Positions 1-22,662 of a DNA stretch of 35,161 nt are shown one piece after another. The translations under genes and the position numbers were made by a program. This DNA comes from a bacterium (GTDB lineage Bacteria; Sumerlaeota; Sumerlaeia; MVZB01), in NCBI GenBank assembly GCA_021372575.1, contig JAJFUE010000059.1:80359-115519 (forward strand), written 5' to 3'. Position 1 is the first letter of the stretch; every line of letters starts with the position of its first letter. The notes under the pieces are model-generated. The model searched no databases and had not been told where the DNA came from. It saw nothing but the letters and a program-made list of their open reading frames with translations.

Positions 1-1352
1 AATTGATTTTCCGGAAGAGTTCCGGTCGTGTAATTATTAAGGAACGAACAATATGTCACGATGGCATCGGAATAAAGAGCACCGCCGCAACGAATAGATG
101 AATTCTGAATGAACACGCAATGCGACACAGGCCCGCCCACCACAGTGGCCGCACCCGCGGCGCCGCCACTTGCTATTGCCGAAACTCTTTCAACCGAGTT
201 CCCAATGAACGTGCAGTTCTCAACGCTCCCGGCCATGGATAAGGCTCCATCTCCAAATGTCGCCGAATTCCCAATGAAATCGCAAACGGATATGGTTTGC
301 AACTCACCGCTGCTATCAATTCCCCCGACATCGTCGGCGGAATTTTCTATTATTTTGCAATTCGTGATCGTGCCTGATTTTCCGTAATTACTGACCGCAC
401 CACCCCTGCCGTAACCACTACCACCAAAAGCCTTGTTGCCACGCAACGTGCAACCGCTCATTGTCAGGCCGTTTGACCAATTATAGAGACCTCCACCAGC
501 ATGGTAAACCAATCTTCCAGAGACAATGTTATTGTTAAATGCACAGCCTATCAACGTTGGAGAAGTTCCATAGTTGTGAACGGCGCCGCCACTGGCAAAA
601 TCGGCATCAACTGAATTGCCATTAAAAACGGCATTGATGATTTTCAGGGAATGACCACTGTTGTATAAAGCGCCTCCACAACCAATGTAACCGGTCGGCG
701 AATGACCAATTTTAAAGACGGAATCGCTGATGACCGAATTGTTGAGGAACCTGCAGTTCATGATGGTCTGGGCATCACCGGTGTTATAAATCGCCCCACC
801 ACACGACGTCGCCGTGTTATCGGAAAAAGTGCAGTTGACCAGGCTCATCGTCGTCGCACCGTCGCAATAAAGCCCCGCGCCGGATTTGGAAGATGACACG
901 CTGGAATCCGCACGACCGTTCTTCACCGTGAATCCATCAAGCGTGGCGAGACTTGCGCCGATCACCACGTGATAAGAATTGTCCAATGGCGTTGTGGTCG
1001 ATCCGATGTTCCCGTTCAGGGTCGTGACTCGGGAAGCCCAGTCGCGCTGGCTGCGTTCCGTTTCGGTCCCGGCGAATCCGCCGTAAATCGCCACATCCTC
1101 CGGCAGGACAAATGAAATTGTGCGGTCGGTTCCCTTCGTAGGCTTATACGTCGCTGCCGCGACCCAGATTTCGTCGCCCGGTCTCGCATTCTCCAGCGCT
1201 GAATTCAATTTTGTGAACGCGTCTGCCCATGATGTCCCATTGTTGCCGCCGGCGGCGCCCTGCTTGACGTAAATCGTCTTCCCCCACGCCGCGCTGATCA
1301 TGCACGAAAACAGAGTCGCCACCAAGACACACGTCAAAGCCGTGTTGCGCAT
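1..1352 (-). CDS. Secreted right-handed beta-helix protein, partial (C-terminus beyond window)
   Basis: Reading the minus strand from ATG at 1352 gives an uninterrupted frame of about 450 codons that runs off the left edge. It starts with a signal peptide (MRNTALTCVLVATLFSCMIS, then AAWG) followed by TIYVK and NNGTSWADAF, the usual opening of secreted beta-helix proteins. The rest is a run of roughly 22-28-residue rungs of the type NCTFxxNxA and GGAxYNxG, as in polymorphic-outer-membrane-protein or choice-of-anchor Q adhesins. A GAGGAGAG ribosome site lies 6 nt upstream (complement of 1359-1366). It is clearly paralogous to the next gene along nearly its whole visible length and lies 50 bp from its stop, so the two are probably co-transcribed. 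Likely exported to the cell surface; the ligand is unknown. The C-terminal tail is not visible. Confidence 0.88.
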   Translation of the reverse strand, partial: MRNTALTCVLVATLFSCMISAAWGKTIYVKQGAAGGNNGTSWADAFTKLNSALENARPGDEIWVAAATYKPTKGTDRTISFVLPEDVAIYGGFAGTETERSQRDWASRVTTLNGNIGSTTTPLDNSYHVVIGASLATLDGFTVKNGRADSSVSSSKSGAGLYCDGATTMSLVNCTFSDNTATSCGGAIYNTGDAQTIMNCRFLNNSVISDSVFKIGHSPTGYIGCGGALYNSGHSLKIINAVFNGNSVDADFASGGAVHNYGTSPTLIGCAFNNNIVSGRLVYHAGGGLYNWSNGLTMSGCTLRGNKAFGGSGYGRGGAVSNYGKSGTITNCKIIENSADDVGGIDSSGELQTISVCDFIGNSATFGDGALSMAGSVENCTFIGNSVERVSAIASGGAAGAATVVGGPVSHCVFIQNSSIRCGGALYSDAIVTYCSFLNNYTTGTLPENQ

Positions 1353-1402
1353 GTTAGGCTCTCCTCGATGGATTTGTTTCATCGATCGTATAGCCCGAAC
1401 CA

Positions 1403-3523
1403 TTACCAGTACATCATCCAACCGCGCGCGGCGTTCCTTGGCGTGATGAACTCGTAGGCTCCGATGTCGGCCGCGCCTTCGCGCGGGATGCCGAGGATGT
1501 CTTTCGACGGCGCGACTACGGTATAACCGGCGTCAATGCACGGCGATCCCGTTTGCAAACGTAACCCGTCGTCCCACGTCATGTATAACCCGTCCGGCCC
1601 GGCCGGATTGGCCGCGCTCACCCACTTCGGATTGCCCTTGATGTTGCCGCCACGATTGGTCCCGAAATTCGGGTTCCAGTGGGAGCCATCCCAATCGGAA
1701 AGATCGCAGTGGCTGACCGTCATGATGCCGCTGTCGATAAAAACGTCGGGCCCGCCCTGCTTCGCGGTGTTGCCCCAGAACACGCAATTCGTGGCCGAGG
1801 TGCTGATGTCCTCCATCGGATACTGCTGATGAAACGCACCGCCGTAATTCGTCGCGCTGTTCTGGGAGAACGTGCAGTTGGCGATTTCCGAATTGGTCCA
1901 GCCGTAAATGCCGGCGCTGTAGGCCTCGATCGCGCCGCCGCTCTTGGCCGAGTTGGCGATGAAAACACAGTTCGAGACCACCACCGGATTGAAGTAGGCG
2001 CTTGTCATGAACAGGCCGCCGCCGTAGCCGTTCAGCCCTTTAGCCGTGTTGCCAACGAACACGCAGTCGGCGACCGATTCGGTCATCGGACCCGAGTTGA
2101 CGGCGCCGGCGGAATCGGCCGAGTTGTTCCTAAAAACGCAGTTCGAAATCTGTCGGGCCTTCGAGATCGCGGCGCCCGCGGTGGATGCCGTGCCGGTCGA
2201 ATAGTTGTCGCTGAACGTGCAATACGTCACGATGGGCGTGTCGTAGAGGCTGCAAATTCCACCGCCCGAATTGGTGAATGTGTTCCGCGTGAACCGGCAC
2301 CACGTCACGACTTGGGGGTTGCCTGTGAAAGTTCCATTCAGGATGCCGCCCCCCATGCCCAGGTTGCTGGAAGGGCCGATCGCGGTGTTGGCATCGAACG
2401 CGCAGTTGGTGACCGTTTGTGAAAGGCCCGCATTCAGGATTCCGCCGCCGCCGTCGCCGGTGGCCGCATTGGCGTTGAACGCACAGACGGAAACGGTCAC
2501 CGTGGTGCCGCTGTTGAAGAGCCCCGCGCCGCCATAGGCCCGGTTGCCGGTAAACGTGCAGCCGGAAACCACGGCCGAATTGCCGGTGTTGTAAATGGCC
2601 CCGCCATACTGTTTGGCCGAATTCGCGCTGAAATTGCATTGCGTGACAACCAGCGACGGGCCGGCGTTGCAGATTGCGCCGCCGTTGGGTGATTCGTAAG
2701 CGGCGCCCGAAAGGACGTAATTGGCCTTGAAGGTGCAATTCACGATCGCCGCGGAAGCGCCGCTGTTGTAGAGCGCACCACCGGCGGGATGAGACGCCGG
2801 CGAGAACGAATACACCGAATTACCCTCGAACGCGCAGCTTGAGACCTTGAGGAACTTGCCGGAGTTGTATATCGCGCCGCCTGCATGACCGCTGTAATTG
2901 TTAATGGAATTGCCCGTGAACGAGCAGGACACGATCGATTGCGAGTCGCCGGTGCTGAAGACCGCGGCGCCGCAGGACGTGGCGGCGTTGTTGCGGAAGG
3001 TGCAATTGGCGACGGTCATGGTCGTCACGCGATCGCAATACAGGCCCGCGCCGCTTTTGAACGCATTGGCGGTGGAATCGGCGAGGCCGTCCCGGACGAT
3101 GAACCCGTCGAGCCGGGCCTTGTTTGCGCCGACCACCACGTGGTACGAGTTATCGGCCGTTCCGGCGGCGCCGATCTCACCGCTGAGCGTCGTCGGGCGC
3201 GCCGTCCAGTTGCGCTGACCGCGCGAGGTCTCCGTGCCGGCGAATCCGCCATAGACGGCCACGCCGGCCGGGAGCATGAACGAGACGCCGCGGTCGGCGC
3301 CGGCGGTTGGCTTGTATGTGGCCGAAGCGACCCAGATTTCGTCGCCCGATTTCGCCGCCGCCAGGGCGGGGACAAGATCCTTGTATGCGTTGGCCCACGA
3401 GGTCCCGTTGTTGCTGCCGGTGGCGGCCGGCTTGACGTAAATCGTCCCGCCCCACGCCGCGCCGATCAGGCACACGAACAGAAAGGCAGGCAAAACACTT
3501 GCGCCAGTCGATTTCCGAATCAC
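1403..3523 (-). CDS. Secreted right-handed beta-helix protein, choice-of-anchor Q type, with W-x-x-Y tail
   Basis: A 706-residue protein. I chose the GTG at 3523 because a GGGGAG ribosome site sits 7 nt upstream and the signal peptide (core VLPAFLFVCLIGAAWG) then falls at residues 9-25. Longer ATG starts at 3556 and 3760 add a non-signal-like leader. Residues about 95-610 are repeated beta-helix rungs (NCTFxxNxA, GGAIYNxG). Residues about 640-695 contain SPCIDAG and DIGAYEF, the signature of the choice-of-anchor Q domain that caps such helices. The last five residues are WMMYW, which match the W-x-x-Y-x ends of the unrelated disaggregatase-like proteins at 7965-18700. A surface adhesin or polysaccharide-binding role is inferred from the fold only; no catalytic residues are recognisable. 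It lies upstream of its paralogue at 1-1352 on the same strand. Confidence 0.88.
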   Translation of the reverse strand: MIRKSTGASVLPAFLFVCLIGAAWGGTIYVKPAATGSNNGTSWANAYKDLVPALAAAKSGDEIWVASATYKPTAGADRGVSFMLPAGVAVYGGFAGTETSRGQRNWTARPTTLSGEIGAAGTADNSYHVVVGANKARLDGFIVRDGLADSTANAFKSGAGLYCDRVTTMTVANCTFRNNAATSCGAAVFSTGDSQSIVSCSFTGNSINNYSGHAGGAIYNSGKFLKVSSCAFEGNSVYSFSPASHPAGGALYNSGASAAIVNCTFKANYVLSGAAYESPNGGAICNAGPSLVVTQCNFSANSAKQYGGAIYNTGNSAVVSGCTFTGNRAYGGAGLFNSGTTVTVSVCAFNANAATGDGGGGILNAGLSQTVTNCAFDANTAIGPSSNLGMGGGILNGTFTGNPQVVTWCRFTRNTFTNSGGGICSLYDTPIVTYCTFSDNYSTGTASTAGAAISKARQISNCVFRNNSADSAGAVNSGPMTESVADCVFVGNTAKGLNGYGGGLFMTSAYFNPVVVSNCVFIANSAKSGGAIEAYSAGIYGWTNSEIANCTFSQNSATNYGGAFHQQYPMEDISTSATNCVFWGNTAKQGGPDVFIDSGIMTVSHCDLSDWDGSHWNPNFGTNRGGNIKGNPKWVSAANPAGPDGLYMTWDDGLRLQTGSPCIDAGYTVVAPSKDILGIPREGAADIGAYEFITPRNAARGWMMYW

Positions 3524-4045
3524 ATCGCATCTCCCCGCGTTTCTTAACTGGAACATCTGTATATTCTTTTTTTGGTAATCGCCACTGGAATCGACGGGGG
3601 CTCGCGGCTCGATGCCAGGCGGATCATCGCATCGGTGGACGCGGGTTGCCATGGGGTGGAGCGCGGCGCCCCAAAATCCATCAGCATGGTGCAGCGCAAA
3701 CGGTCGAAATAGGTGGATACGCCCATCGAGTTTTAACAGTTGAAAATGATTCAACATCATTCCCGATTACACAAAATGCAATTAATAGGCCACAAAATAC
3801 AATCTCCATGGAAATTAAAACAGACCGAGGTAATTCAGGAAAGACATTGTGCCCAATACAGAAATATTCATCTCATTCTTATCATGAATTCGGATCCGCA
3901 GCATTGGGAACCGCTCAATTCACTTTCGCTTTTTTGACGTTTTCTTGCATTTACACGGCGAATTATAATATTGTATTTAATGGAGTTATGTCTATTCCGC
4001 CAAATACGACAACAAAACAATTAAAAAAAGTTTGTGAATTTTTTC
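3524..4045. other. Intergenic region, AT-rich, divergent control region
   Basis: No gene is convincing here; the short open frames show no codon bias and no family resemblance. The left part holds the GGGGAG ribosome site and presumably the promoter of the minus-strand beta-helix gene, but I cannot pick a clear promoter. From about 3705 to 4045 the sequence becomes strongly AT-rich. It shares scattered blocks with 5055-5352 upstream of the second pseudopilin, for example a CCCATCGAG block followed by a TTGAAAAT-like block. It is therefore probably part of the duplicated pseudopilin cassette. Confidence 0.5.
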
Positions 4046-7964: not shown

Positions 7965-10436
7965 ATGGGGTCATTGAGGCACGCATTTTATCGGCTCAGC
8001 CTGACATTGATTGCATGCGCCGCCATTACGGCCCATGCGGCGACGTATTACGTCGCGACCGACGCAGGCGCCAGCGACGGCAACCCCGGCACGCAGGCCT
8101 CGCCATGGCGCACGATCGCCCACGCGGTGGCCACGGTCGTTGCCGGCGACACGGTCATGATCAAGGGCGGCAATTACGGCAACGAATACATCACGATGAG
8201 CAATAAAAGCGGCACGGCCAGCAAGCCGATCGTCTTCGAGGGATATGACGGCTGGCCGGTGCTGGGAACGCTGCCCAGTCCGCGTACGACGCCGCCGAGC
8301 GATGTCACCAAGTGGGGTTTCCGGCTCTATAAGAGTCACTACATCACGCTTCGGAACATCAAATTCACTTATTATTACAACTGCCTTTACGTCGAGCTTT
8401 CCAATTACGTCACCGCAGACAACATTTATGTCAACACGAGCGGTTCGACGGGGGCCGCGGGCACCGGCATCTTCTGGAAGTATTCGAACTACGGAAAGAT
8501 CCTCAATTGCACGGTGATCGACGCCGGCGGCAACGACGTGATGCTCGCCGAGGCCAACTATTGCCTGGTCGATCATCTCACCTGCCGCGGCACGCTGGAG
8601 GACGAAGATCCCTATTGCACCGATTACTACTTCATCATGCGCTGCTGCAATAACACGACCGTCCAGAACAGCTACGTCGAGGACGAAAAAAAATGCGACA
8701 AAGGCAACCACGGATTCATCATCAAGGACATGGATTGCACGGTCAAAAGCTACAACAACCTCATCCAGGACTGCACGGCGATCGGCGTCGGCGAGTGTTT
8801 CGCCGCCGCCCATGGCGCCTATAACAACACATTCCTCAGGTGCCACGGCAACACGGAGGGCAAAGACAACGGCATCAGCTATATCATCAACTGCCGTAAC
8901 GGCGCCCACGGCAACACGTGGCGGGAAATCACCGGCACCAGCCGGCATATCCTGATCGGCCTGTCGGACGAGGCGGAAGGCGCCTACGACGTCAAGTATG
9001 ACAACAAATTCGTCAATTGCGTGCTGAAGGGCACCCATGGCGAGGCACGCAGCCTTGGTGTCCTTTTCCGGAGGACCCGCAACAACACGTTCGAGAACTG
9101 CGTCCTCGACAACGTCGATCACCTCGGGCGCTACATCCAGACGGCCACAACCGGCGACACCAACACCGGCAACGCGTTCAAAAACTGCATTCTCGCCGGC
9201 ATGACCTCAACCTACGACCCAGACAAAGACATCACCAGTTTCTATCCAATGGGCGGCACCTTGCTGCCCTACGACGGCACGGGCGACCTTGTCGTGACGT
9301 ACACCGATTTCTGGGACAATGTGTTCACGGCCCTCGGCGGTTCCGGCAACATGTCGGCCGATCCCCTGTTCGCCGATCGGACGAACCGCGATTATCATTT
9401 GAAGTCCACGATCGGACGCTGGAACGGATCGGAGTGGGTGCAGGACACGGCGAACTCGCCGTGCATCGACGCCGGCGACCCCGCCTCCAGCTACGCCAGC
9501 GAACCGGCGCCCAACGGCGACCGAATCAACATCGGCGGCTACGGCAACACCACCGAGGCGTCCATGTCGCCGACGGGAACGCCCGTCACTTCGATGGACA
9601 ACCGCCTGGCCGAGCGATACCCGACCACGATCTACGGGAACAACACCTACCTGGACATCGGCCACCTGGCCAATTACGACAAGAGATACCGGGATCTGGT
9701 GTGGTTCGACCTGAGCCACTACCAGAACGCGGCGTTGATATCAAAGGCGACGCTGTCGCTTTACTGGTATTTCCCGTCATCGACGCGGACCAACGACACG
9801 GTGGCTGAAGTCTATAAACCCGCGGCGGGCTGGGACCATAACTACGTGTGCTGGGTGAACAAATCCAGCGGGGTTGCGTGGACGCACGCCGGCGGGGACT
9901 GGTATGACAGGAACGGGACGGCGCAAGGAAGCACGCCGTATGCAAGCGTGACGTTCAGCGGCTCGCAGAACGCAACGAACCAGTATTACGCGTTCGACGT
10001 CACCGACCTTGTCAAGGCATACATCGCCGGCGGCCAGAACCCGGGATTCTTCATCAAGGCGCGCACGGAGAACGATAATTACATCGCCTTTGCCGCCCTG
10101 AAAAACACAAATCCCGCCATGCGGCCTAAACTCGAGTTGACGTTGGACGCCGACCTGTGGGTCGATTTCTCGTGGGCCGGCGCGGAGACGGGGTTGCAGG
10201 CCGAGCCCTTCAACACGCTGGTCGAGGGCGTCGGCGCGCTGACCGCGGGCAGAACGCTCCATATCATCGCGGGCACGACCGCCGAAACGGCGCGCATCAC
10301 GAAGCCGATGCGCATCGTCGCCGAGAACGGAACGGTGCGGCTGGGCGCGGCCGTGGGCATGGCATCTCCGCCGTCGCGGACGGCGTCGAGGACGCGCGGC
10401 CGGAACTCGGCCATGGATTGGAGCCTCTACAAATGA
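7965..10436 (+). CDS. Disaggregatase-related beta-helix protein, paralogue A (with extra C-terminal module)
   Basis: An 823-residue secreted protein. It has a signal peptide at residues 1-25 (ends AHA|ATYYVATD), a DUF1565-like opening with PWRTI and GDTVMIKGGNYG, a right-handed beta-helix at about 95-500 rich in NCxxxD/NxxFxNC rungs, SPCIDAGD with GDRINIGGYGN, then a DNRLRE-type module from DNRLAERYPTT at residue 545 to RPKLELT near 730. The module matches the Methanosarcina disaggregatase-related repeat in its motifs YRDLVWFDLS, LSLYWYFPS, GGDWYDxNG and FFIKARTENDNYIAF. Only this paralogue then has another segment (about 733-795, WVDFSWAGAETG to RITKPMRIVAENG). That segment resembles the first rungs of another beta-helix. 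It ends MDWSLYK. GGAG lies 6 nt before ATG 7965. It heads a run of five paralogues. A polysaccharide-binding or cleaving role is inferred from the archaeal relatives. Confidence 0.88.
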   Translation: MGSLRHAFYRLSLTLIACAAITAHAATYYVATDAGASDGNPGTQASPWRTIAHAVATVVAGDTVMIKGGNYGNEYITMSNKSGTASKPIVFEGYDGWPVLGTLPSPRTTPPSDVTKWGFRLYKSHYITLRNIKFTYYYNCLYVELSNYVTADNIYVNTSGSTGAAGTGIFWKYSNYGKILNCTVIDAGGNDVMLAEANYCLVDHLTCRGTLEDEDPYCTDYYFIMRCCNNTTVQNSYVEDEKKCDKGNHGFIIKDMDCTVKSYNNLIQDCTAIGVGECFAAAHGAYNNTFLRCHGNTEGKDNGISYIINCRNGAHGNTWREITGTSRHILIGLSDEAEGAYDVKYDNKFVNCVLKGTHGEARSLGVLFRRTRNNTFENCVLDNVDHLGRYIQTATTGDTNTGNAFKNCILAGMTSTYDPDKDITSFYPMGGTLLPYDGTGDLVVTYTDFWDNVFTALGGSGNMSADPLFADRTNRDYHLKSTIGRWNGSEWVQDTANSPCIDAGDPASSYASEPAPNGDRINIGGYGNTTEASMSPTGTPVTSMDNRLAERYPTTIYGNNTYLDIGHLANYDKRYRDLVWFDLSHYQNAALISKATLSLYWYFPSSTRTNDTVAEVYKPAAGWDHNYVCWVNKSSGVAWTHAGGDWYDRNGTAQGSTPYASVTFSGSQNATNQYYAFDVTDLVKAYIAGGQNPGFFIKARTENDNYIAFAALKNTNPAMRPKLELTLDADLWVDFSWAGAETGLQAEPFNTLVEGVGALTAGRTLHIIAGTTAETARITKPMRIVAENGTVRLGAAVGMASPPSRTASRTRGRNSAMDWSLYK

Positions 10437-10481
10437 TTGTCGCTGCAGTTTCAGAGTACTCAACACGGAGGCGATATAAGG

Positions 10482-12680
10482 ATGTCCGCTAGAATTTACA
10501 TTTTGTTGTTCGCGGTGATCTTGATGGCCCACGGCGCCATTCCGGTTCGGGCGGCGACGTATTACGTCGCGACCGACTCCGGCGCGAGCAACAGCAATGC
10601 CGGCACGCAAGACAAGCCGTGGCGCACCATCACGTATGCCGCTAGCAAGGCGGTGGCCGGCGACACGGTCAAAATCAAGGCCGGCAGCTACGGCCGAGAG
10701 CATGTGGTGGTGAAGAACTCCGGCACGGCCAGCAAACCGATCGTCTTCGAGGGCTATGGCGGGACGGTCCTGCTGGGCACGCTGGATAGTCCGCGCAAGA
10801 TTCCCGCCGACACCGAGATCGGCTTCAGGATCTGGGGCCCGGACTACATCACGGTCAGGAATCTCAACTTCACGTGGTATTACGAATGTTTCAGGGTCGA
10901 TGAGTCCGAATACATCACCTGCGAAAATCTTGTGTGCGACAAATGCGGCGCGGACGGGGCAGGCGGCAGCGCCATCGTGTATAAATACAGCAACCACGGC
11001 AAGATCCTGAATTGCAAGGTGACCGATTGCGGCGGCAACAACGTGTTCCTCAGCCGCGCCAATTACATGCTGATCGACAACCTGACGAGCCTTGGCACGC
11101 TGGTGGCGAGCGACACCTTCTGCACCGACTACTACTGCGTGATGCGCTGTTGCCATGACAACGTGGTCCAGAACAGCTACGCGGAGGACAAGGCCGCCAC
11201 GAACAAGGGCAATCACGGCTTCATCATCAAGGATTCGATCTACACGCCCAACAGCTACAACAATGTCATCAAGGATTGCACGGCCAAATCCTTCGAGGAA
11301 TGCTTCTCGGTCGCGCACCTGGCCTATAACAACCAGTTCATCCGGTGCCATGGGGACAATTCGCAGAAAATCCTCAAATTCAATAATGTGCTGAACTGCC
11401 GTAACGGCGCGCATGACAACACGTTCATCGATTGCGACGGCGTCGGCGACAACATCCTGATCGGCCTGTCGGACTACGCGGAGACCAATTACCAGACAAA
11501 ATACAATAATAAATTCATCAACTGCAGGCTGAAAAGCACCGGCAAAACAACCAGCATCGGCATCAACTACTGGAACACGCAAAATACCGTGTTTCAGAAC
11601 TGCGTCTTCGACAACGCGAATTACTTCGGCCGCTATATCGCGAATAATACCGGCAATTCGTTCAAGAACTGCATTGTGACGGGCATGAAGGCTTCCTACG
11701 ATCCCTACGCGCTGATCGGAACGGGGGATGCCTACTACCCATGGGGGAACCAGAAAACGCCCTACAACGGCACAGGCGACCTGAGCGTGACCTATACGGA
11801 TTTCTGGAACAACAGTTTTTCGGCGTTCAGCGGCGCCGGCAACATGTCGGCCGACCCGAAGTTCGCGAACCAGTCTGCGCGGGACTATCACCTGAAATCG
11901 AAGGCCGGGCGGTGGAATGGATCGGCGTGGGTGTATGACACGGAGGACTCGCCGTTGATCGACAAGGGCGATCAATCGTCGAGTTACACGAACGAACCCG
12001 CGCCCAACGGCGGCCGCATCAACATCGGCGGCTACGGCAACACGGTTGAGGCTTCGAAGTCCTCGTCCGGAAATAACGGACCCGCCACGCCATACGACAA
12101 CCGGCTGTGCGAGCGATATCCGACGACCGTTTATGCGAGCAATACGTTCCTGGATGTCGGCCATAACGCGGGCTACAACAAAATCTATCGCGACCTGATC
12201 TGGTTCGACCTGAGCCCGTACAGCGGATCGATCAAGAAAGCGACGCTCTCGCTGTATTGGTATTTCCCGTCCTCGGCGCGGACCAACAGCACGATCGTTG
12301 ATGTTTATCGGCCGGCATACGGATGGAATCACGATTACGCGTGCTGGAACAACAAGTCCAACGGCGTCGCGTGGACACACGCCGGCGGCGACTGGTATGA
12401 CCAGAACGGCACGGCGCAAGGCAGCACGCCCTACGCCAGCATTACGTTCAGCGCCTCGCAGGCCGCGACGAACCAGTACTACGCGTTCGACGTCACGGCG
12501 CTCGTCAACGAATATTTGAAAAGCGGCCAGAACGCGGGATTCTTCATCAAGGCACACACGGAAAGCGACAACTACATCGCCTTCTACGGCCTGGCATCCA
12601 CTGAGACCGCCAAGCTGCCCAAGTTGGAGATCACCAAGGCCAATCCCGTCCCGGCGGAAGCCTGGGCGCTATACCATTAA
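10482..12680 (+). CDS. Disaggregatase-related beta-helix protein, paralogue B
   Basis: 732 residues, starting at ATG 10482 behind CGGAGG; an upstream in-frame ATG at 10437 would place 15 residues before the signal peptide. The signal peptide core is ILLFAVILMAHGAIPVRA. Then come ATYYVATDSG, PWRTITYAA, the beta-helix (about 95-480), SPLIDKGD with GGRINIGGYGN, and the DNRLCERYPTT module (539 to about 720) with YRDLIWFDLSPYSG and FFIKAHTESDNYIAF. The final residues are EAWALYH. The gap to paralogue A is 45 bp and to paralogue C 43 bp, with no terminator visible, so co-transcription is likely. Its C-terminal third is almost identical at DNA level to paralogue D, while its N-terminal half is less similar, which points to recombination between copies. 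In this copy the SPCID cysteine of the other copies is Leu. Confidence 0.88.
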   Translation: MSARIYILLFAVILMAHGAIPVRAATYYVATDSGASNSNAGTQDKPWRTITYAASKAVAGDTVKIKAGSYGREHVVVKNSGTASKPIVFEGYGGTVLLGTLDSPRKIPADTEIGFRIWGPDYITVRNLNFTWYYECFRVDESEYITCENLVCDKCGADGAGGSAIVYKYSNHGKILNCKVTDCGGNNVFLSRANYMLIDNLTSLGTLVASDTFCTDYYCVMRCCHDNVVQNSYAEDKAATNKGNHGFIIKDSIYTPNSYNNVIKDCTAKSFEECFSVAHLAYNNQFIRCHGDNSQKILKFNNVLNCRNGAHDNTFIDCDGVGDNILIGLSDYAETNYQTKYNNKFINCRLKSTGKTTSIGINYWNTQNTVFQNCVFDNANYFGRYIANNTGNSFKNCIVTGMKASYDPYALIGTGDAYYPWGNQKTPYNGTGDLSVTYTDFWNNSFSAFSGAGNMSADPKFANQSARDYHLKSKAGRWNGSAWVYDTEDSPLIDKGDQSSSYTNEPAPNGGRINIGGYGNTVEASKSSSGNNGPATPYDNRLCERYPTTVYASNTFLDVGHNAGYNKIYRDLIWFDLSPYSGSIKKATLSLYWYFPSSARTNSTIVDVYRPAYGWNHDYACWNNKSNGVAWTHAGGDWYDQNGTAQGSTPYASITFSASQAATNQYYAFDVTALVNEYLKSGQNAGFFIKAHTESDNYIAFYGLASTETAKLPKLEITKANPVPAEAWALYH

Positions 12681-12723
12681 ACCCGTGCCGCTTCGAGCCG
12701 AAGCGGCATGCCGAGGGAATTTC

Positions 12724-14124
12724 ATGATGTCGCCAAAACTCAAAATGATGTTGTTCGGGATCGCGTTGACGATCATGGCGGGCGCCACGCTGGCATGCAC
12801 CACGACATATTACGTTGCGACCGATTCGGGCGCGAGCGACAACAACACCGGCACGCAGGCCAAGCCGTGGCGCACGATCGCCTACGCCGCGAGCAAGGCC
12901 AAGGCCGGCGACAGGGTGATGATCAAGGCGGGAAGTTACGGCAACGAGCATGTGGTCGTGGCGAACGCCGGCACGGGCGAAAACAAACGGATCGTGTTCG
13001 AAGGCTACGGCGGGACGGTGCAACTGGGCGTGTTGCCGAACCCGCGCACGCTGCCGGCCGACACCGAAATTGGATTCAAGATCGAGAAGAAATCGTACAT
13101 CACGCTCAGGAACCTCAGTCTCACCTGGTATTTCGATTGCGTCAGCGTGAAGGGCTCCGATCATGTGAACTGCGAAAATATTCATATCGACATGTGCGGC
13201 TCGGAGAAATGGCTGGGCCACGGCATCATCTATTCGTTCTCGGATTACGGCAAAATCATCGACTGCACGGTCAACAACTGCGGCGGCAACAATGTCGATC
13301 TGGCCCACTCGAATTACTGCCTGATCGACAATCTCAAGACGCTCGGCACGCTGAAGGAGACCGACACCTTCGCCACCGACTATTACTGCGTCCTGATCTG
13401 CTGCCACGATTGCACGATCCGGAACAGTTATGCCGAGGACACGCTCGCCTCACGCAAGGGCAATCACGGCTTCATTATCAAGGATTTGAACGGGACTCCG
13501 CACAGCTGCAACAACAAAATCATCGACTGCAGGGCGGTATCGTTCGAAGAGTGTTTTTCCGTCGCGCACCTGGCCCATCACAACGAGTTCATCCGGTGCG
13601 TCGCGGACAGCACGCGGGTGCCGAACACGATCAACCAGGCCCTCAACTGCCGCAACGGCGCCCACGATAACGTATTCCGGGACTGCACGGCAACCGGCCG
13701 TCGCATCGTCGTCGGCCTTGGGAATTACAGCGAAGGCAATGCGGTCAACAAGTCCGGAAATCGATTCGTCAACTGCAAGCTCAGGGCGACCGGCGAATCC
13801 AACAGCCTTGGTGTCCAGTTCTGGCTGACGAGCGACACCATTTTCGAGAACTGCGTCTTCGAGAATGTCAATTACCTTGCCCGCTATGTCGGCGAAAACA
13901 AAGGCATCGCCTTTAAGAGCTGCAAATTCACCGGGATCAAGGCCGCTTACGACCCAACCGTCATCGGGTATTATCCGTTCGGCAAAGGCGCGACACCGAC
14001 GGACGAGACGAATGCGCTGTCGGTCACTTATTCGGACTTTTATGACAATGCATTCCCTGCATTGAATGGCACAGGCAACACGACGCGGGCGTCAAAAACC
14101 ACGCCATCCGCGGGCAGAAAATGA
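12724..14124 (+). CDS. Disaggregatase-related beta-helix protein, paralogue C, truncated
   Basis: 466 residues from ATG 12724, with GAGGG about 6 nt upstream. The signal peptide core is LFGIALTIMAGATLA, followed by CTTTYYVATDSG and the same beta-helix as its neighbours; it is closest to paralogue D (GTGENKRIVFEGYGG, PRTLPADTEIGFKI, SVAHLAHHNEFIRC). The protein stops just after NGTGN, exactly where the full-length copies continue NMSADPxF. The last 15 residues (TTRASKTTPSAGRK) have no counterpart. The DNRLRE module, the SPCIDAGD segment and the W-x-x-Y tail are all absent. The reading frame is otherwise intact with normal codon use, so it may still be made as a soluble helix-only version; alternatively it is a deletion product on the way to decay. 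The next gene begins 46 bp downstream. Confidence 0.8.
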   Translation: MMSPKLKMMLFGIALTIMAGATLACTTTYYVATDSGASDNNTGTQAKPWRTIAYAASKAKAGDRVMIKAGSYGNEHVVVANAGTGENKRIVFEGYGGTVQLGVLPNPRTLPADTEIGFKIEKKSYITLRNLSLTWYFDCVSVKGSDHVNCENIHIDMCGSEKWLGHGIIYSFSDYGKIIDCTVNNCGGNNVDLAHSNYCLIDNLKTLGTLKETDTFATDYYCVLICCHDCTIRNSYAEDTLASRKGNHGFIIKDLNGTPHSCNNKIIDCRAVSFEECFSVAHLAHHNEFIRCVADSTRVPNTINQALNCRNGAHDNVFRDCTATGRRIVVGLGNYSEGNAVNKSGNRFVNCKLRATGESNSLGVQFWLTSDTIFENCVFENVNYLARYVGENKGIAFKSCKFTGIKAAYDPTVIGYYPFGKGATPTDETNALSVTYSDFYDNAFPALNGTGNTTRASKTTPSAGRK

Positions 14125-14170
14125 AACTGTCCCGCCGAATCGGATCGGGCTAAAGAAGGAGCATTCAATC

Positions 14171-16360
14171 GTGGTGTTCAGAACGTCGATCGTCGCGTTC
14201 GTCCTGGTTTTGATTACGTTACTGGGCGGAATGCCGGCCGGCGCCGCGACGTATTACGTCGCTACCGATTCGGGCGCCAGCAACAGCAACACCGGCACGC
14301 AGGACAAGCCGTGGCGGACGATTGCCTACGCCGCAAGCAAGGCAATGGCCGGCGACACGGTCATGATCAAGGCCGGCAATTACGGCAACGAGCATGTGGT
14401 CGTGGCGAACTTCGGCACGGGCGAAAGCAAACGGATCGTGTTTGAAGGCTACGGCGGCAAGGTCCAGTTGGGCGTGCTGCCCAGTCCGCGCACGCTGCCC
14501 GCCGATACCGAAGTCGGGTTCAAGATCAAAGACAAAAACTACATCACGCTGCGAAACCTCAATTTCACGTGGTATTTCGATTGCGTCTATATCGAAAACT
14601 CCGATTATGTCACCTGTGAAAATCTTTACATCGACAAATGCGGATCGAAGGATTGGCTTGGGCACGGCATCGTCTATACAAGTTCGAATAACGGAAAAAT
14701 CCTGGGCTGCACGGTGATCGATTGTGGCGGCAACAACATGTCTCTCCGTCACTCGAATGATTGCCTGATCGACAACCTCAAGACCCTTGGCACGCTGGCG
14801 GGCAGCAATACTTACGCCACCGACTATTATTGCGTCCTGGTATGCTGCAGTGGCTGCACCGTCCAGAACAGCCGTGCCGAAGATCAGGTCGATTCCGACA
14901 AAGGCAACCACGGATTCATCATCAAGGATCTCAGCAGCACGCCGCACAGTCACGACAACCTGATCAAGGATTGCGTGGCCATTTCGTTCGAAGAGTGTTT
15001 TTCCGCCGCGCACCTCGCCTATAAAAACACGTTCCTCCGGTGCTACGGCGACAATTCGGCCAAGACGAACCGGTTCAGCACCGTCCTGCAGGCGCGCAAC
15101 GGCGCCTACAACAACACGTTCAAGGAGTGCGGGGGCGTCGGCAGCAGGGCCCTGGTCAGCCTGACGAGCTACGATGAAGGCAATGTCACGAACAAGGACG
15201 GCAACAAGTTCATCAATTGCAGGCTGAGGGGCACCGGCCTGAGCGGCAGCCGGGCGATCGTATTCGGTCGAACCACCAACTCCGTCTTCCAAAACTGCGT
15301 TTTCGAGAAGGTGACGTATCTGGCCCGCTGGGTCAACGGCACGACCAACACGGGCAACTCGATCAAGAACAGCATCATCGCCGGCATGCAGGCCACCTAC
15401 GATCCTTACGATCTTGATCCCTATCCCTACGGCACCAATACGCCCTACGACGGCACGAGCGCCCTCACCGTGACGTATTCGGATTTCTGGAGCAACAGTT
15501 TCCCGGCATTCGGCGGCTCCGGCAACATGTCGGCCGACCCGAAGTTCGCCAACCAGGCCGGCGGCGATTATCATTTGAAGTCCAAGGCCGGGCGGTGGAA
15601 TGGAACGGCGTGGGTGTATGACACGGAGGACTCGCCGTGCATCGACAAGGGCGATCAATCGTCGAGCTACACGAACGAACCCGCGCCCAACGGCGGCCGG
15701 ATCAACATCGGCGGCTACGGCAACACGGCCGAGGCTTCGAAGTCCTCGTCCGGCAACAACGGACCCGCCTCGCCATACGACAATCGGTTGTGCGAGCGTT
15801 ACCCGACCACGGTTTATCCGAGCAACGCGTTCCTGGATGCCGGGCATCTTGCCTCGACGATCAACAAAAGCTATCGCGACCTGATCTGGTTCGACCTGAG
15901 CCCGTACAGCGGCTCGGTCAAGAAGGCGACGCTTTCGTTGTGTTGGTATTATCCAACATCGTCGCGCACCAACAGCACGGTCGTCGATATTTACCGCCCG
16001 GCATACGGATGGAATCACGATTACGCGTGCTGGAACAACAAGGCCAATGGCGTCGCGTGGACACACGCCGGCGGCGACTGGTACGACAAGAACGGCACGG
16101 CGCAGGGCAGCACGCCGTATGCGAGCGTCACGTTCAACGCCACGCAGGCCGCGACGAACCAGTATTACGCGTTCGACGTCACGGCGCTGGTGAACGAATA
16201 CCTGAAAAGCGGCCAGAACGCGGGATTCTTCATCAAGGCGCGCACGGAGAGCGACAATTACATCGCCTTCGACGGGCTGGCCGCGACAGATAGCGCGACG
16301 TTGCCGAAGCTCGAAGTGGTCAAGGCCAACGATGCCGCGACCTGGGCTGTTTATCAATAA
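14171..16360 (+). CDS. Disaggregatase-related beta-helix protein, paralogue D
   Basis: 729 residues. The start chosen is GTG 14171, 9 nt after AAGGAG; a longer frame from ATG 14066 would overlap paralogue C and lacks signal-peptide features. The signal peptide core is IVAFVLVLITLLGGMPAGA, followed by ATYYVATDSGASNSN, the beta-helix (about 95-480) with many Cys residues (YYCVLVCCSGC), SPCIDKGD, and the DNRLCERYPTTVY module (537 to about 720) with WFDLSPYSGSVKKATLSL and FFIKARTESDNYIAF. It ends ATWAVYQ. The N-terminal half resembles paralogue C and the C-terminal third paralogue B, so it is a mosaic. By analogy with the archaeal disaggregatase-related family it should act outside the cell on aggregated polysaccharide; no catalytic residues can be named from sequence alone. 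Confidence 0.88.
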   Translation: MVFRTSIVAFVLVLITLLGGMPAGAATYYVATDSGASNSNTGTQDKPWRTIAYAASKAMAGDTVMIKAGNYGNEHVVVANFGTGESKRIVFEGYGGKVQLGVLPSPRTLPADTEVGFKIKDKNYITLRNLNFTWYFDCVYIENSDYVTCENLYIDKCGSKDWLGHGIVYTSSNNGKILGCTVIDCGGNNMSLRHSNDCLIDNLKTLGTLAGSNTYATDYYCVLVCCSGCTVQNSRAEDQVDSDKGNHGFIIKDLSSTPHSHDNLIKDCVAISFEECFSAAHLAYKNTFLRCYGDNSAKTNRFSTVLQARNGAYNNTFKECGGVGSRALVSLTSYDEGNVTNKDGNKFINCRLRGTGLSGSRAIVFGRTTNSVFQNCVFEKVTYLARWVNGTTNTGNSIKNSIIAGMQATYDPYDLDPYPYGTNTPYDGTSALTVTYSDFWSNSFPAFGGSGNMSADPKFANQAGGDYHLKSKAGRWNGTAWVYDTEDSPCIDKGDQSSSYTNEPAPNGGRINIGGYGNTAEASKSSSGNNGPASPYDNRLCERYPTTVYPSNAFLDAGHLASTINKSYRDLIWFDLSPYSGSVKKATLSLCWYYPTSSRTNSTVVDIYRPAYGWNHDYACWNNKANGVAWTHAGGDWYDKNGTAQGSTPYASVTFNATQAATNQYYAFDVTALVNEYLKSGQNAGFFIKARTESDNYIAFDGLAATDSATLPKLEVVKANDAATWAVYQ

Positions 16361-16424
16361 ACAGAAGGCGCAAGCCCACCCCTGCCCCCCGGCCCAAAGC
16401 GGACGCCTGACCGAACCTGCCGAC

Positions 16425-16453
16425 TTGCAAGCGTTTGTTCCTTTTTGTTACAG
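16425..16453 (+). promoter_or_regulatory. Possible promoter of paralogue E
   Basis: TTGCAA at 16425-16430, a 17-nt spacer and TTACAG at 16448-16453, in the longest gap of the paralogue run (165 bp between D and E). The -10 is weak. The longer spacing suggests that E can be transcribed separately. Confidence 0.35.
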
Positions 16454-16525
16454 TCAAGATGGCGTTTTGCGTCGTCGATTCAACATCATGGGTTAAACGC
16501 GTTAGCACTTTCGGCGGAGTTCAGC

Positions 16526-18700
16526 ATGATGATGTCGCATTTCAGAATCCTGGCGTCCCTCGCCCTGGCGGCGATCGTCACAAGCGCCATGCCGGCCTTC
16601 GCCGCGACGTATTACGTATCCACGGCTTCCGGCGCCAGCAACAGCAACACCGGCACGCAGGACAAGCCGTGGCGCACGATCACCTACGCCGCGAGCAAGG
16701 CCGTGGCCGGCGATACGGTCTATATCAAAGCCGGCAACTACGGCAACGAGACGGTTGTCGTCAAGAACTCGGGCTCCTCGGGCAAGCCGATTACGTTTGA
16801 AGGCTACGGCGGGACGGTGCTGCTGGGCACGCTGCCCAATCCGCGCACGACGCCGGCCTCGACCTTTTACGGGTTTTACATGAGCGGGAAGAACTACATC
16901 ACGCTCCGCAATCTGAACTTCACCTATTATTTCGAATGCGTCTATGTCAATTCGTCCGACTATGTAACGCTCGACAACCTTTACATCGACAAGTGCGGCG
17001 GCGAAGGCGCTTACGGCGACGGCATCATCCTGTCGTATGCGGATCACTGCACAATCACCAACTGCACGGTCAAAGATTCCGGCGGCGACGACGTGTTTCT
17101 CAATCACTCGAATTACAACACGATCGACAACCTCAAGTGCATCGGCACGCTCGCATCCAGCGACACCTATGCGACCGACTATTACTTTGTGGGGCGCTGC
17201 TCGAGCTACAATACGATCAAGAACTGCGCCAACGAGGACACCGTCTCGAGCAAGGGCAATCACGGCTTCATTTTCAAGGACCTGACCTACACGCCCAACA
17301 GCACGGGCAACGTCGTCCAAGACTGCACGGCCAAGAACTTCGAGGAGTGCTTTTCCGTCGCGCACAAGGCCTATGGCAATACGTTCCTCAGGTGCACCGC
17401 CGACAATTCCAAGCGCACCATGGGCTACAATGCGTGCTTCCAGGCGCGCAACGGCGCCCACGACAACACCGACCGCGAGTGCAACGGCACCGCCGGCAGC
17501 GTCGGGGTGAGCCTATCCAACTACGCCGAAGGCAACACCACGCTCGACAAGCCGAACAACAGGTGGATCAACTGCCTGCTGAAGAGCGGCAACCAATCCA
17601 GCAGCATCGGCATCTACTTTGACCGCACCAGCGGGACCGTGTTCGAGAATTGCGTGTTCGACAAGTTCGTTTATTTCGCGCGCTACACCAACACGAACAC
17701 GGCCATCACGCTCAAGAACAGCATTCTGACCGGCATGACCAACCGCTACGACGGGAGAAACATGTCCTATCCGCTCGGCGGAAAGGTGGGCACCGACGGC
17801 ACGAGCGCCATCACTGCAACCTACAACGACATTTTCGGCAATACGTTTGCCTCGTTCGGCGGCGAAGGCACGATCTCGCAGGATCCGCTGTTCGCCTCGA
17901 CGACCGACTACCACCTGAAGTCCAAGGCCGGCCGCTGGAATGGATCGGCGTGGGTGCAGGACGCCGAAAGCTCGCCGTGCATTGACGCCGGCGACCAGTC
18001 ATCCGCCTACACGAAGGAACCGGCGCCCAACGGCGGCCGAATCAACATCGGCCGCTACGGCAACACGACCGAGGCCTCCAAGTCCAGCGGCGGCGGCCCG
18101 ATCGTCTATCCGCCCAGCGACAACCGCCTGCTCGAGCGCGACCCGACGATCGTGTATGCCTCCAACACGTTCCTCGACATCGGCCATATGGCCTCGAATG
18201 GCAAGAAATATCGCGACCTGATCTGGTTCGACCTGAGCCAGTATCACGCTTCGGTCAAGCAGGCGACGCTTTCGCTTTACTGGTATTTCCCCTCCGCAAC
18301 GCGAATAAACGACACGATCGTTGACATCTACCGCCCCGCCGCGGGCTGGGATCACAACACGGTCTGCTGGAACATCAAGTCCGGCACGACCGCTTGGACG
18401 AACGCCGGCGGCGACTGGTTCGACAAGAACGGCACGGCGCAAGGCAACGTTCCCTACGCGAGCATCACCTTCAGCGGATCGCAGCCCGCGACGAAACAAT
18501 TCTGCGCGTTCGACGTCACATCCCTGGTCAACGCGTATATCCAGAGCGGCCAGAACGCCGGCTTCTTCATCAAGGCCCGCACCGAGAACGACAACTACAT
18601 TGCATTGTACGCGCTCAACGCGACCGACACAGCGACGCGCCCCAAGCTCACGATCTCCGACGCCCGCAACGCCGCCGAATCGTGGGCGCTATACAAATAG
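16526..18700 (+). CDS. Disaggregatase-related beta-helix protein, paralogue E
   Basis: 724 residues from ATG 16526 (GGAG 6 nt upstream; the next two codons are also ATG). The signal peptide is ASLALAAIVTSAMPAFA, followed by ATYYVSTASGASNSN, PWRTITYAA and the beta-helix (about 95-480) with NCTV, NCVF and NSIL rungs. Then come SPCIDAGDQ, GGRINIGRYGN and the DNRLLERDPTIVY module (532 to about 715) with YRDLIWFDLSQYHASVKQ, GGDWFDKNG and FFIKARTENDNYIALY. It ends ESWALYK. Codon use matches its neighbours. It is the last of the run and faces a minus-strand gene 30 bp downstream; a small CAAACT-TC-AGTTTG hairpin at 18725-18738 overlaps that gene's stop. Role inferred as for its paralogues: surface or secreted polysaccharide-active or adhesive protein. 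Confidence 0.88.
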   Translation: MMMSHFRILASLALAAIVTSAMPAFAATYYVSTASGASNSNTGTQDKPWRTITYAASKAVAGDTVYIKAGNYGNETVVVKNSGSSGKPITFEGYGGTVLLGTLPNPRTTPASTFYGFYMSGKNYITLRNLNFTYYFECVYVNSSDYVTLDNLYIDKCGGEGAYGDGIILSYADHCTITNCTVKDSGGDDVFLNHSNYNTIDNLKCIGTLASSDTYATDYYFVGRCSSYNTIKNCANEDTVSSKGNHGFIFKDLTYTPNSTGNVVQDCTAKNFEECFSVAHKAYGNTFLRCTADNSKRTMGYNACFQARNGAHDNTDRECNGTAGSVGVSLSNYAEGNTTLDKPNNRWINCLLKSGNQSSSIGIYFDRTSGTVFENCVFDKFVYFARYTNTNTAITLKNSILTGMTNRYDGRNMSYPLGGKVGTDGTSAITATYNDIFGNTFASFGGEGTISQDPLFASTTDYHLKSKAGRWNGSAWVQDAESSPCIDAGDQSSAYTKEPAPNGGRINIGRYGNTTEASKSSGGGPIVYPPSDNRLLERDPTIVYASNTFLDIGHMASNGKKYRDLIWFDLSQYHASVKQATLSLYWYFPSATRINDTIVDIYRPAAGWDHNTVCWNIKSGTTAWTNAGGDWFDKNGTAQGNVPYASITFSGSQPATKQFCAFDVTSLVNAYIQSGQNAGFFIKARTENDNYIALYALNATDTATRPKLTISDARNAAESWALYK

Positions 18701-21365: not shown

Positions 21366-22484
21366 TCAATAGCGCAAGATCGCGCCGATGCCGCCGTGCT
21401 CGCGAAGCCAATCGCGCGGGGTGCCTTCGAGCGACTCGATGCGCGCGCCGTCCAGCAGCGCGCGCTCCATGGCGAGATCGACGATGTTATCGGCCTCGCG
21501 GCCAGCGGCGCCGCACGCGGGGCAATGATCGAACGGCCGCGTGTCGAGGTGGCCGCATTTTTCGCACACGGTTCCCTTCAGCTCGACCTGCTCGGCCACG
21601 ATCAGGTGATCGATGCGGTGCTCGGCGAGACGCTTGAGCGTCTGGTCGAGCCCGACCACGCCCCGGCCGCCGGGGTGCTTGGCCTCGTCGAGCCGATCAA
21701 CAAGCTCCTGTTCGGTCTTGCGCTCGTATTCCTGGTTGATCCGGCAGGCCTGCTCGAGGATCTCGTCCTCGGACGCGTGCTTGAAGTCGATCGGGAACGT
21801 GCCGATCACGCGTTTTGAGATCGAGTCGGGCAGCAGCCGCAGGGCCTCGGCGACGGTGTCGGGCGTGCCGCCGATGGCCAGCCGGCCAAACGGGTTTTCG
21901 GTCTGCAACCGCGCGAGCGCGTCGATCACGTCCTTGAGGTGCACGCGCACCTGGTAGTCGATGTGGCGCTGGAACCGCGACTGCGAACGGCCGCCCTGGT
22001 CGTGGCGCCCCTGGACCTCGCTCTCGACGCGGGCGCGTTCCCCGCCGCGGCGCAGTTCGGTCGTGTAGATCACGCCCTGATCCTTCTGCACGACCATCAC
22101 CGCGAGGCGCGGATACTGCTCGATGATCCGCATGAGGAACGACGTCACCGGCCGCGTTTCGACCGCCAGGTGACTCGGCGTGAGGACGTCGAGGTTGATC
22201 GGTTCCCACAAGCCGGCCGGTTCGCACGCGAAGATCACGACGCCGCGGCTGGACGGGCCAAGCCCCTGCAAATGGCGCTCGATGCGTGGGCGCTCGCGTT
22301 CCAGCGCGTCACGGCGCGCGCGGTCGGGGCAGAATTGATCGAACCGGCGCACCAATCCCTTGAACTGCGTCAGCGGCTGGTGCCGGTCGCAGGCCAGGCG
22401 CGGGTCGGCGCGCAGGTAGGCCGATACGATGAATGCGTCATGCTTCAGGCTGGTCAGTTCTTCCAAGCGTTTTAGAGAAATCAT
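21366..22484 (-). CDS. Bacterial archaeo-eukaryotic release-factor-like protein (baeRF/VLRF1-type) with zinc ribbon
   Basis: 372 residues from ATG 22484, chosen because GGGGAGG is 9 nt upstream; a frame extending to 22529 exists. Residues about 1-150 form an N-terminal domain with VSAYLRAD and VVIFACEPAGLWE. Residues 120-230 form an eRF1-middle-like domain (LAVMVVQKDQGVIYTTEL, then GGRSQSRFQRH at 164-174, then HLKDVIDAL and RLAIGGTPDTV). Residues 290-335 carry a C-terminal zinc ribbon, CEKC at 307-310 and CPAC at 321-324. This order is known for bacterial relatives of eukaryotic/archaeal release factors and Vms1-type peptidyl-tRNA hydrolases. GGRSQSRF stands where eRF1 has GGQSxxRF, so the catalytic Gln position is Arg here, with another Gln two residues on. 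A role in ribosome rescue or peptidyl-tRNA cleavage is inferred. Confidence 0.82.
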   Translation of the reverse strand: MISLKRLEELTSLKHDAFIVSAYLRADPRLACDRHQPLTQFKGLVRRFDQFCPDRARRDALERERPRIERHLQGLGPSSRGVVIFACEPAGLWEPINLDVLTPSHLAVETRPVTSFLMRIIEQYPRLAVMVVQKDQGVIYTTELRRGGERARVESEVQGRHDQGGRSQSRFQRHIDYQVRVHLKDVIDALARLQTENPFGRLAIGGTPDTVAEALRLLPDSISKRVIGTFPIDFKHASEDEILEQACRINQEYERKTEQELVDRLDEAKHPGGRGVVGLDQTLKRLAEHRIDHLIVAEQVELKGTVCEKCGHLDTRPFDHCPACGAAGREADNIVDLAMERALLDGARIESLEGTPRDWLREHGGIGAILRY

Positions 22485-22662
22485 CGCCGGGGTCCTCCCC
22501 GAGGTCATTTTGGTGAGATTCATTTTCAACGGTCTGGTAGTGGATGGTGAAGGAGATCACGTCGTGCCCATCGGAGCCGAGGCTCTGCCGGGCGGTTGCG
22601 CGGAACGCCTCCATGATGGGCCATTTCAGCCGGGCCTCCCGCCATGAAAACCTGAGTTTCAT
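22438..22662 (-). CDS. Small hypothetical protein upstream of and overlapping the baeRF gene
   Basis: A 74-residue frame starting at ATG 22662 (MKLRFSWREARLKWPIMEAF). GAGGTG lies 6 nt upstream. The first 50 codons have strong G/C at third positions, like real genes of this genome, then the bias fades where it overlaps the baeRF start by 47 bp, which would allow translational coupling. The sequence (FRATARQSLGSDGHDVISFTIHYQ) is faintly like one helix plus strand of a ribosome hibernation factor (HPF/RaiA), which would suit a release-factor neighbour, but this is too weak to assign. It may also be a remnant of a longer gene. Confidence 0.45.
   Translation of the reverse strand: MKLRFSWREARLKWPIMEAFRATARQSLGSDGHDVISFTIHYQTVENESHQNDLGEDPGDDFSKTLGRTDQPEA

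Follow-up and report, generated by a model that had tools for sequence, protein, structure and literature searches.

The window analyzed here is a 35,161-nucleotide stretch of bacterial DNA whose + strand carries, at positions 7965-18700, five tandem paralogous genes for exported beta-helix proteins (Table 1). About 43-46 bases separate genes 1 to 4 and 165 lie ahead of gene 5, a GGAGG Shine-Dalgarno sequence precedes the gene 2 ATG at 10482, and the five genes probably form a single operon. All five products feature a plausible signal peptide upstream of an (A)TYYV stretch, and their helix regions are 50.9-66.8% identical in pairwise comparison. The first-pass annotation had described five copies in a row; five genes do lie here, but only four of them encode the C-terminal Disaggr_repeat module, with gene 3 breaking off directly behind NGTGN and reading into the gene 4 leader. 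The window helices, that of the truncated gene 3 included, are nevertheless under purifying selection, with dN/dS values of about 0.3-0.5 between copies (gene 3 again included) and of about 0.3 between genes 3 and 4. The longest exact match between any two copies is shorter than 48 bases, which makes collapse of the array during assembly unlikely.

Table 1. Coordinates of the array genes and of their modules, C-caps, tags and conserved helix residues in the window.
Feature	Position	Strand	Description
Gene 1 (P0001, 823 aa)	7965..10436	+	likely ATG 7965; signal peptide, beta-helix, PF08480-type C-cap, Disaggr_repeat module, 90-aa extension, tag
Gene 2 (P0002, 732 aa from likely ATG)	10482..12680	+	gene 1 architecture without the 90-aa extension
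Gene 3 (P0003)	12724..14124	+	likely ATG 12724; helix only; C-cap, module and tag missing
Gene 4 (P0004)	14171..16360	+	likely start GTG 14171 or 14174; full architecture
Gene 5 (P0005)	16526..18700	+	likely ATG 16526; full architecture
PF08480-like C-cap, gene 1 helix	9342..9476	+	profile 150-194
PF08480-like C-cap, gene 2 helix	11826..11969	+	profile 147-194
PF08480-like C-cap, gene 4 helix	15518..15652	+	profile 150-194
PF08480-like C-cap, gene 5 helix	17687..17992	+	profile 91-194
Disaggr_repeat module (DNRLRE superfamily), gene 1	9597..10136	+	PF06848 233 bits (DNA search)
Disaggr_repeat module, gene 2	12096..12632	+	PF06848 220.5 bits (DNA search); 52.5% identical to M. hollandica
Disaggr_repeat module, gene 4	15779..16318	+	PF06848 211 bits (DNA search)
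Disaggr_repeat module, gene 5	18119..18655	+	PF06848 219 bits (DNA search)
C-terminal tag, gene 1	10401..10436	+	RNSAMDWSLYK-stop
C-terminal tag, gene 2	12654..12680	+	AEAWALYH-stop
C-terminal tag, gene 4	16334..16360	+	AATWAVYQ-stop
C-terminal tag, gene 5	18668..18700	+	NAAESWALYK-stop
Same tag on unrelated PMP-repeat beta-helix protein P0008 (1403-3760, -)	1403..1435	-	NAARGWMMYW-stop
Helix stretch with conserved charged residues, gene 2	11127..11402	+	D231 (11127), K257 (11205), E288 (11298), R322 (11400)

The kinship with archaeal disaggregatase families that had been read from the letters was borne out by profile search, with significant matches to both PF06848 (Disaggr_repeat) and PF08480 (Disaggr_assoc) in four of the proteins. 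In a Pfam protein search, genes 1, 2, 4 and 5 match PF06848 with 208-228 bits (E 1.4e-61 to 7.5e-68) against a curated cut-off of 33.9 bits and span profile positions 1-178/179, whereas their PF08480 matches (45-53 bits) mostly cover the last 45-61 of 194 positions; gene 3 has neither a PF06848 module nor a PF08480 match in this search. These E-values exclude chance. The modules belong to a superfamily known since 2004 from both archaea and bacteria (PMC2447325), together with the generic DNRLRE domains (NF033679, 113-135 bits) and CBM96 (PF24517), which is related to DNRLRE and binds alginate (PMC9971899) and which scores above its cut-off of 26 in the window proteins (36-48 bits, E 6e-9 to 1e-12), with PF06848 far higher. 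Judged from these sequence families, the module presumably binds carbohydrate. Its weak resemblance to the TGF-beta propeptide, with E 0.0022 against Pfam and E 1.2 against the PDB (located at L022 43973-46372), perhaps reflects a shared jelly-roll fold.

Within this superfamily the closest relatives found for the window modules are archaeal. They are 48-55% identical to modules of Methanomethylovorans hollandica, and among 72,556 plasmids searched with the module at E<=1e-5 the sole matching record was that species' pMETHO01 (52.5% identity, 11 places). A joint profile scored 328-343 bits on the archaeal modules, 283-299 on the window ones and about 48 on the best other bacterial stretch fetched, where the former two scores are self-included, the profile having been built from both sets; the independent Pfam PF06848 model gave 314-325 bits for the archaeon and 211-233 for the window in a DNA search. 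Two genome sets were scanned, 40 genomes from the host phylum and 392 from the phylum of the Planctomycetales relatives described below, a different and larger group: PF06848 exceeds its cut-off in just 1 of the 40, the host genome itself, with generic DNRLRE domains present in 21, and reaches at most 58 bits in the 392. Of 14 control genomes, Methanosarcina acetivorans was the only one with PF06848 or PF08480. In a maximum-likelihood tree sampling one archaeal species (M. hollandica) and bacteria from two phyla, the four window modules and 11 archaeal ones form one clade (support 96/93; stem length 0.8 changes per column), separate from 19 DNRLRE modules drawn from those two phyla, and we conclude from these comparisons that the window module is a member of the Methanosarcinaceae subfamily of Disaggr_repeat.

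The same tree groups the four window modules in a single clade (99/94), which indicates that the module multiplied inside the host lineage; the expansion proposed earlier is upheld by this clade. The accompanying proposal of gene movement between domains stands insofar as the tree joins window and archaeal modules, but its direction is not proven: the tree gives weak support (72/95) to monophyly of the archaeal modules with respect to those of the window, and transfer from archaea to the bacterium, although likely, is judged from one archaeal species available as sequence and two bacterial phyla searched, such that other bacterial carriers may exist.

Like Methanosarcinaceae disaggregatase-related proteins such as METHO_RS13045, the window proteins run from signal peptide through beta-helix and C-cap to a Disaggr_repeat module, with 48-55% identity in the module and about 37-53% in the cap. 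The full archaeal architecture attributed to them is nevertheless not present: the helix is another one, PF08480 is represented by its C-cap only, a PKD domain is absent from the window proteins, a lineage-specific tag is added, and there is one module per protein vs. two or three in several archaeal ones. METHO_RS13045 features a full PF08480 region plus a PKD domain and its helix opens unlike that of the window proteins, such that the two helices agree solely in their last coils and C-cap; none of the window proteins matches PF08480 at full length, gene 5 reaching 104 positions in another search. Full-length relatives of the window helix are instead found in two Planctomycetales proteins of DUF1565 type (L013 and L014), which are 37-38% identical to it across helix and C-cap, carry neither module nor tag, and terminate directly behind the shared C-cap (EASKSSK-stop). 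Of two features named earlier, the DUF1565-like opening is weak, with two of the five proteins reaching the Pfam cut-off of 20.3 bits, and SPCIDAGD, though present, is part of a common C-cap for which Planctomycetales proteins score as well; a similar SPCIDAG stretch is found at the end of a PMP-repeat protein of the window that is unrelated to the array.

The archaeal-type helix is found elsewhere in the host genome. Contig C177 carries at 23.5-31 kb (L025 5530-13113) a second tandem array, encoding five disaggregatase-type helix proteins without the module, with full or near-full PF08480 matches (75-177 bits) and about 40% identity to METHO_RS13045 (30-39% in another alignment). One of these helices, searched against the plasmids, matched only METHO_RS13045 on pMETHO01 (38.5% over 90%). 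The last gene ends in AWRLWE-stop some 23 bases from the contig end, and the array may continue beyond it. Related helices of about 30% identity occur in 1 of the 392 genomes from the Planctomycetales relatives' phylum (G352), so the helix family is older in bacteria and may have moved in either direction; that genome has at least three disaggregatase-type helices on one contig (L103, L132). The second-array profile weakly matches mannuronan C5-epimerase in a sequence search of solved structures (E 2.5e-6), and a GH28-like residue layout (ND, GHDG, R) serves as a lead only; a relative of a Methanomethylovorans disaggregatase-related protein has been listed as a putative GH28 (PMC9599418). The second array is immediately preceded by a tandem pair of genes whose products combine an M23 peptidase with PKD (L025 2257-3771 and 3807-5405).

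As judged by sequence, then, the two arrays of the host genome hold both halves of one archaeal protein, and the window proteins are chimeras of a bacterial-type helix and a methanogen-type module, since their helix resembles that of module-less Planctomycetales proteins and the archaeal-type helix sits in the second array. It is in this light that we regard as improbable a simpler account by which the window encodes bacterial disaggregatases that were acquired whole from Methanosarcina and hydrolyze a methanochondroitin-like matrix: module and C-cap do match disaggregatase families and the genome, with its PF08480 helices, possesses both halves, but the window helix is not archaeal and has bacterial relatives devoid of the module, the PKD domain is missing, and the disaggregatase-type helix sits in the other array, where it in turn lacks the module. 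The separation of helix and module in two bacterial arrays provides natural proteins for measuring the activity of each half. A disaggregatase-related region in a large protein of the PVC bacterium Ca. Menyafoubacter has been reported before (PMC12057145); there it is one region alongside PL6 and other domains, whereas the window encodes smaller, tandem secreted proteins.

That the host is a bacterium follows from rplY, pth, rpsF and dnaN, which share the 115-kb array contig. Contamination or misbinning of methanogen DNA could be entertained for an assembly of 214 contigs and a module otherwise archaeal in the material searched, but we consider it extremely improbable: the array shares its long contig with these bacterial ribosomal and replication genes, its proteins bear the C-terminal tag of the host lineage, and its codon usage is fully that of the host (third-position GC content, GC3, of 0.79-0.86 in the window genes and 0.71-0.91 over both arrays; host 0.83 +/- 0.07, archaeal gene 0.29). 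The host-like GC3, so unlike that of the archaeal gene, further implies that the acquisition, if one occurred, is old. A viral origin was also considered and set aside, as scans of viral contigs gave distant single hits or none and phages gave none. Upstream on the array contig, L026 496-13712 (C170 ~60.9-74 kb) carries ParB-like, DUF932, PD-(D/E)XK nuclease and phage-type integrase genes, a possible integrated element, and near the array the window encodes a bacterial archaeo-eukaryotic release factor family 10/VLRF1-like protein (21366-22529, -).

Structure prediction offers some insight into function. The AlphaFold2 model of the gene 2 helix, a parallel beta-helix of carbohydrate-active type predicted with good confidence (pLDDT ~70-93 over most of residues 50-410), finds its best PDB folds by Foldseek in GH136 lacto-N-biosidase (LnbX), PL6 chondroitinase B, GH87 and GH28, at TM-scores of 0.1-0.5 that are low partly owing to the disordered module part, and with the caveat that beta-helix folds match one another generically; a separate model of the module has a mean pLDDT of 47.5. 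In sequence searches of solved structures, likeness of the window helix to such enzymes is restricted to ~40-70 N-cap residues, where the Chondroitinas_B profile also matches weakly. The fold resembles that of PL6, at low TM-scores; no catalytic constellation was identified in the window helices, and the chondroitin link put forward by the first-pass annotation finds no backing other than family names. Four charged residues, D231, K257, E288 and R322, are shared without change by the five copies and the two Planctomycetales relatives; spaced by 26, 31 and 34 residues, they possibly fall on neighboring coils and would make up a candidate ligand or active site. PL6 membership was considered from the E...R motif layout and is not claimed: E288 and R322 are retained, but superposing the motif by eye puts H (window proteins) or E (relatives) at the K position.

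These features bear on whether the proteins are enzymes at all. They could be adhesins or structural surface proteins in which the helix serves as a spacer and the module attaches to a glycan of the cell itself or of a neighbor, with a role in sheath formation or cohesion and not in dispersal. This possibility, to which we assign a lesser but real share of our confidence, draws on no catalytic constellation having been identified, on the PL6 lysine position, which by eye is not conserved, on the presence of the streptococcal adhesin PfbA among the fold matches, and on the binding-type module being joined in M. hollandica to unrelated N-terminal parts (by eye, LVIVD-type repeats, PKD proteins, a lipase-like and a glycosidase-like protein). 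On the other hand, the top fold matches are enzymes, and retention of D, K, E and R across 37-38% identity to the Planctomycetales proteins exceeds what a spacer needs. In either case the window proteins are likely to act at the cell surface through polysaccharide binding or cleavage, and we lean, by a modest degree of confidence, toward exported right-handed beta-helix proteins whose target would be an acidic polysaccharide outside the cell, which they bind and possibly also cleave, formed as a module of archaeal relationship was fused to a resident helix and multiplied. Under such a model, an ancestor of the host would long ago have acquired a disaggregatase-related gene from archaea, or traded such a gene with a methanogen; the module would have been fused to a resident bacterial helix, perhaps via the shared C-cap, and the fusion multiplied toward varied ligand specificity. 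The module could then anchor the protein on a glycan, as the related CBM96 does on alginate, with the helix surface bearing the conserved D, K, E and R providing the binding or catalytic site. A methanogen-type surface module in a bacterium, remodeled by domain exchange and expanded, makes cross-domain exchange of cell-surface glycan tools testable.

Genes 1, 2, 4 and 5 further end in W-x-[LV]-Y-x soon behind the module (in gene 1, behind its 90-residue extension), whereas archaeal modules coincide with the protein end. The consensus of this C-terminal tag, RNAAxxWxLYx-stop (in wider form [R]NAAxxWx[LVIMF]Y[ERKQ]-stop), is found on ~23 exported host proteins from many unrelated families and is nearly confined to the host's bacterial family. 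In a 683-kb host sample, nonrandom in that three of its contigs were chosen for earlier hits, the ending recurs on other exported proteins. A strict DNA pattern (NAAxxWx[LVIMF]Yx-stop) gave 11 matches in the host, 3 in one further genome of its family and 1 in another, plus 1 in the order and 1 in the class, with none in 35 other genomes and none anywhere for the reversed control; a relaxed pattern gave 25 matches vs. 2 for its control, of which 24 close an open frame, many of them mutually unrelated in sequence. All six complete tagged proteins longer than 66 aa start, by eye, with a signal-peptide-like stretch, and the domains represented include DUF5122 propellers, PMP helices, cadherin plus dockerin, and GLUG. 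Because codons and stop codons vary, the constraint on the tag acts on the protein.

The tag contains no transmembrane stretch, and no C-terminal model in Pfam or NCBIfam matches the window proteins; PEP-, GlyGly- and MYXO-CTERM, LPXTG and T9SS signals were accordingly rejected, there being neither a curated-model match nor a transmembrane stretch. It is probably best read as an undescribed sorting or display tag, which would target its carriers to a defined site at the cell surface or beyond it, and it suggests an export or display route for which the libraries searched contain no curated model. We propose, with somewhat more reserve than for polysaccharide binding itself, that such a tag serves many unrelated exported proteins of this bacterial family and that the methanogen-type module was drawn into host display by helix fusion and tagging. 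Its occurrence on beta-propeller, cadherin and PMP proteins would also suit nonenzymatic adhesins. Adjacent Chlamydia-PMP-repeat beta-helix proteins with the tag at their end are encoded at window positions 3-3760 (-) and at L026 19262-19996 (-).
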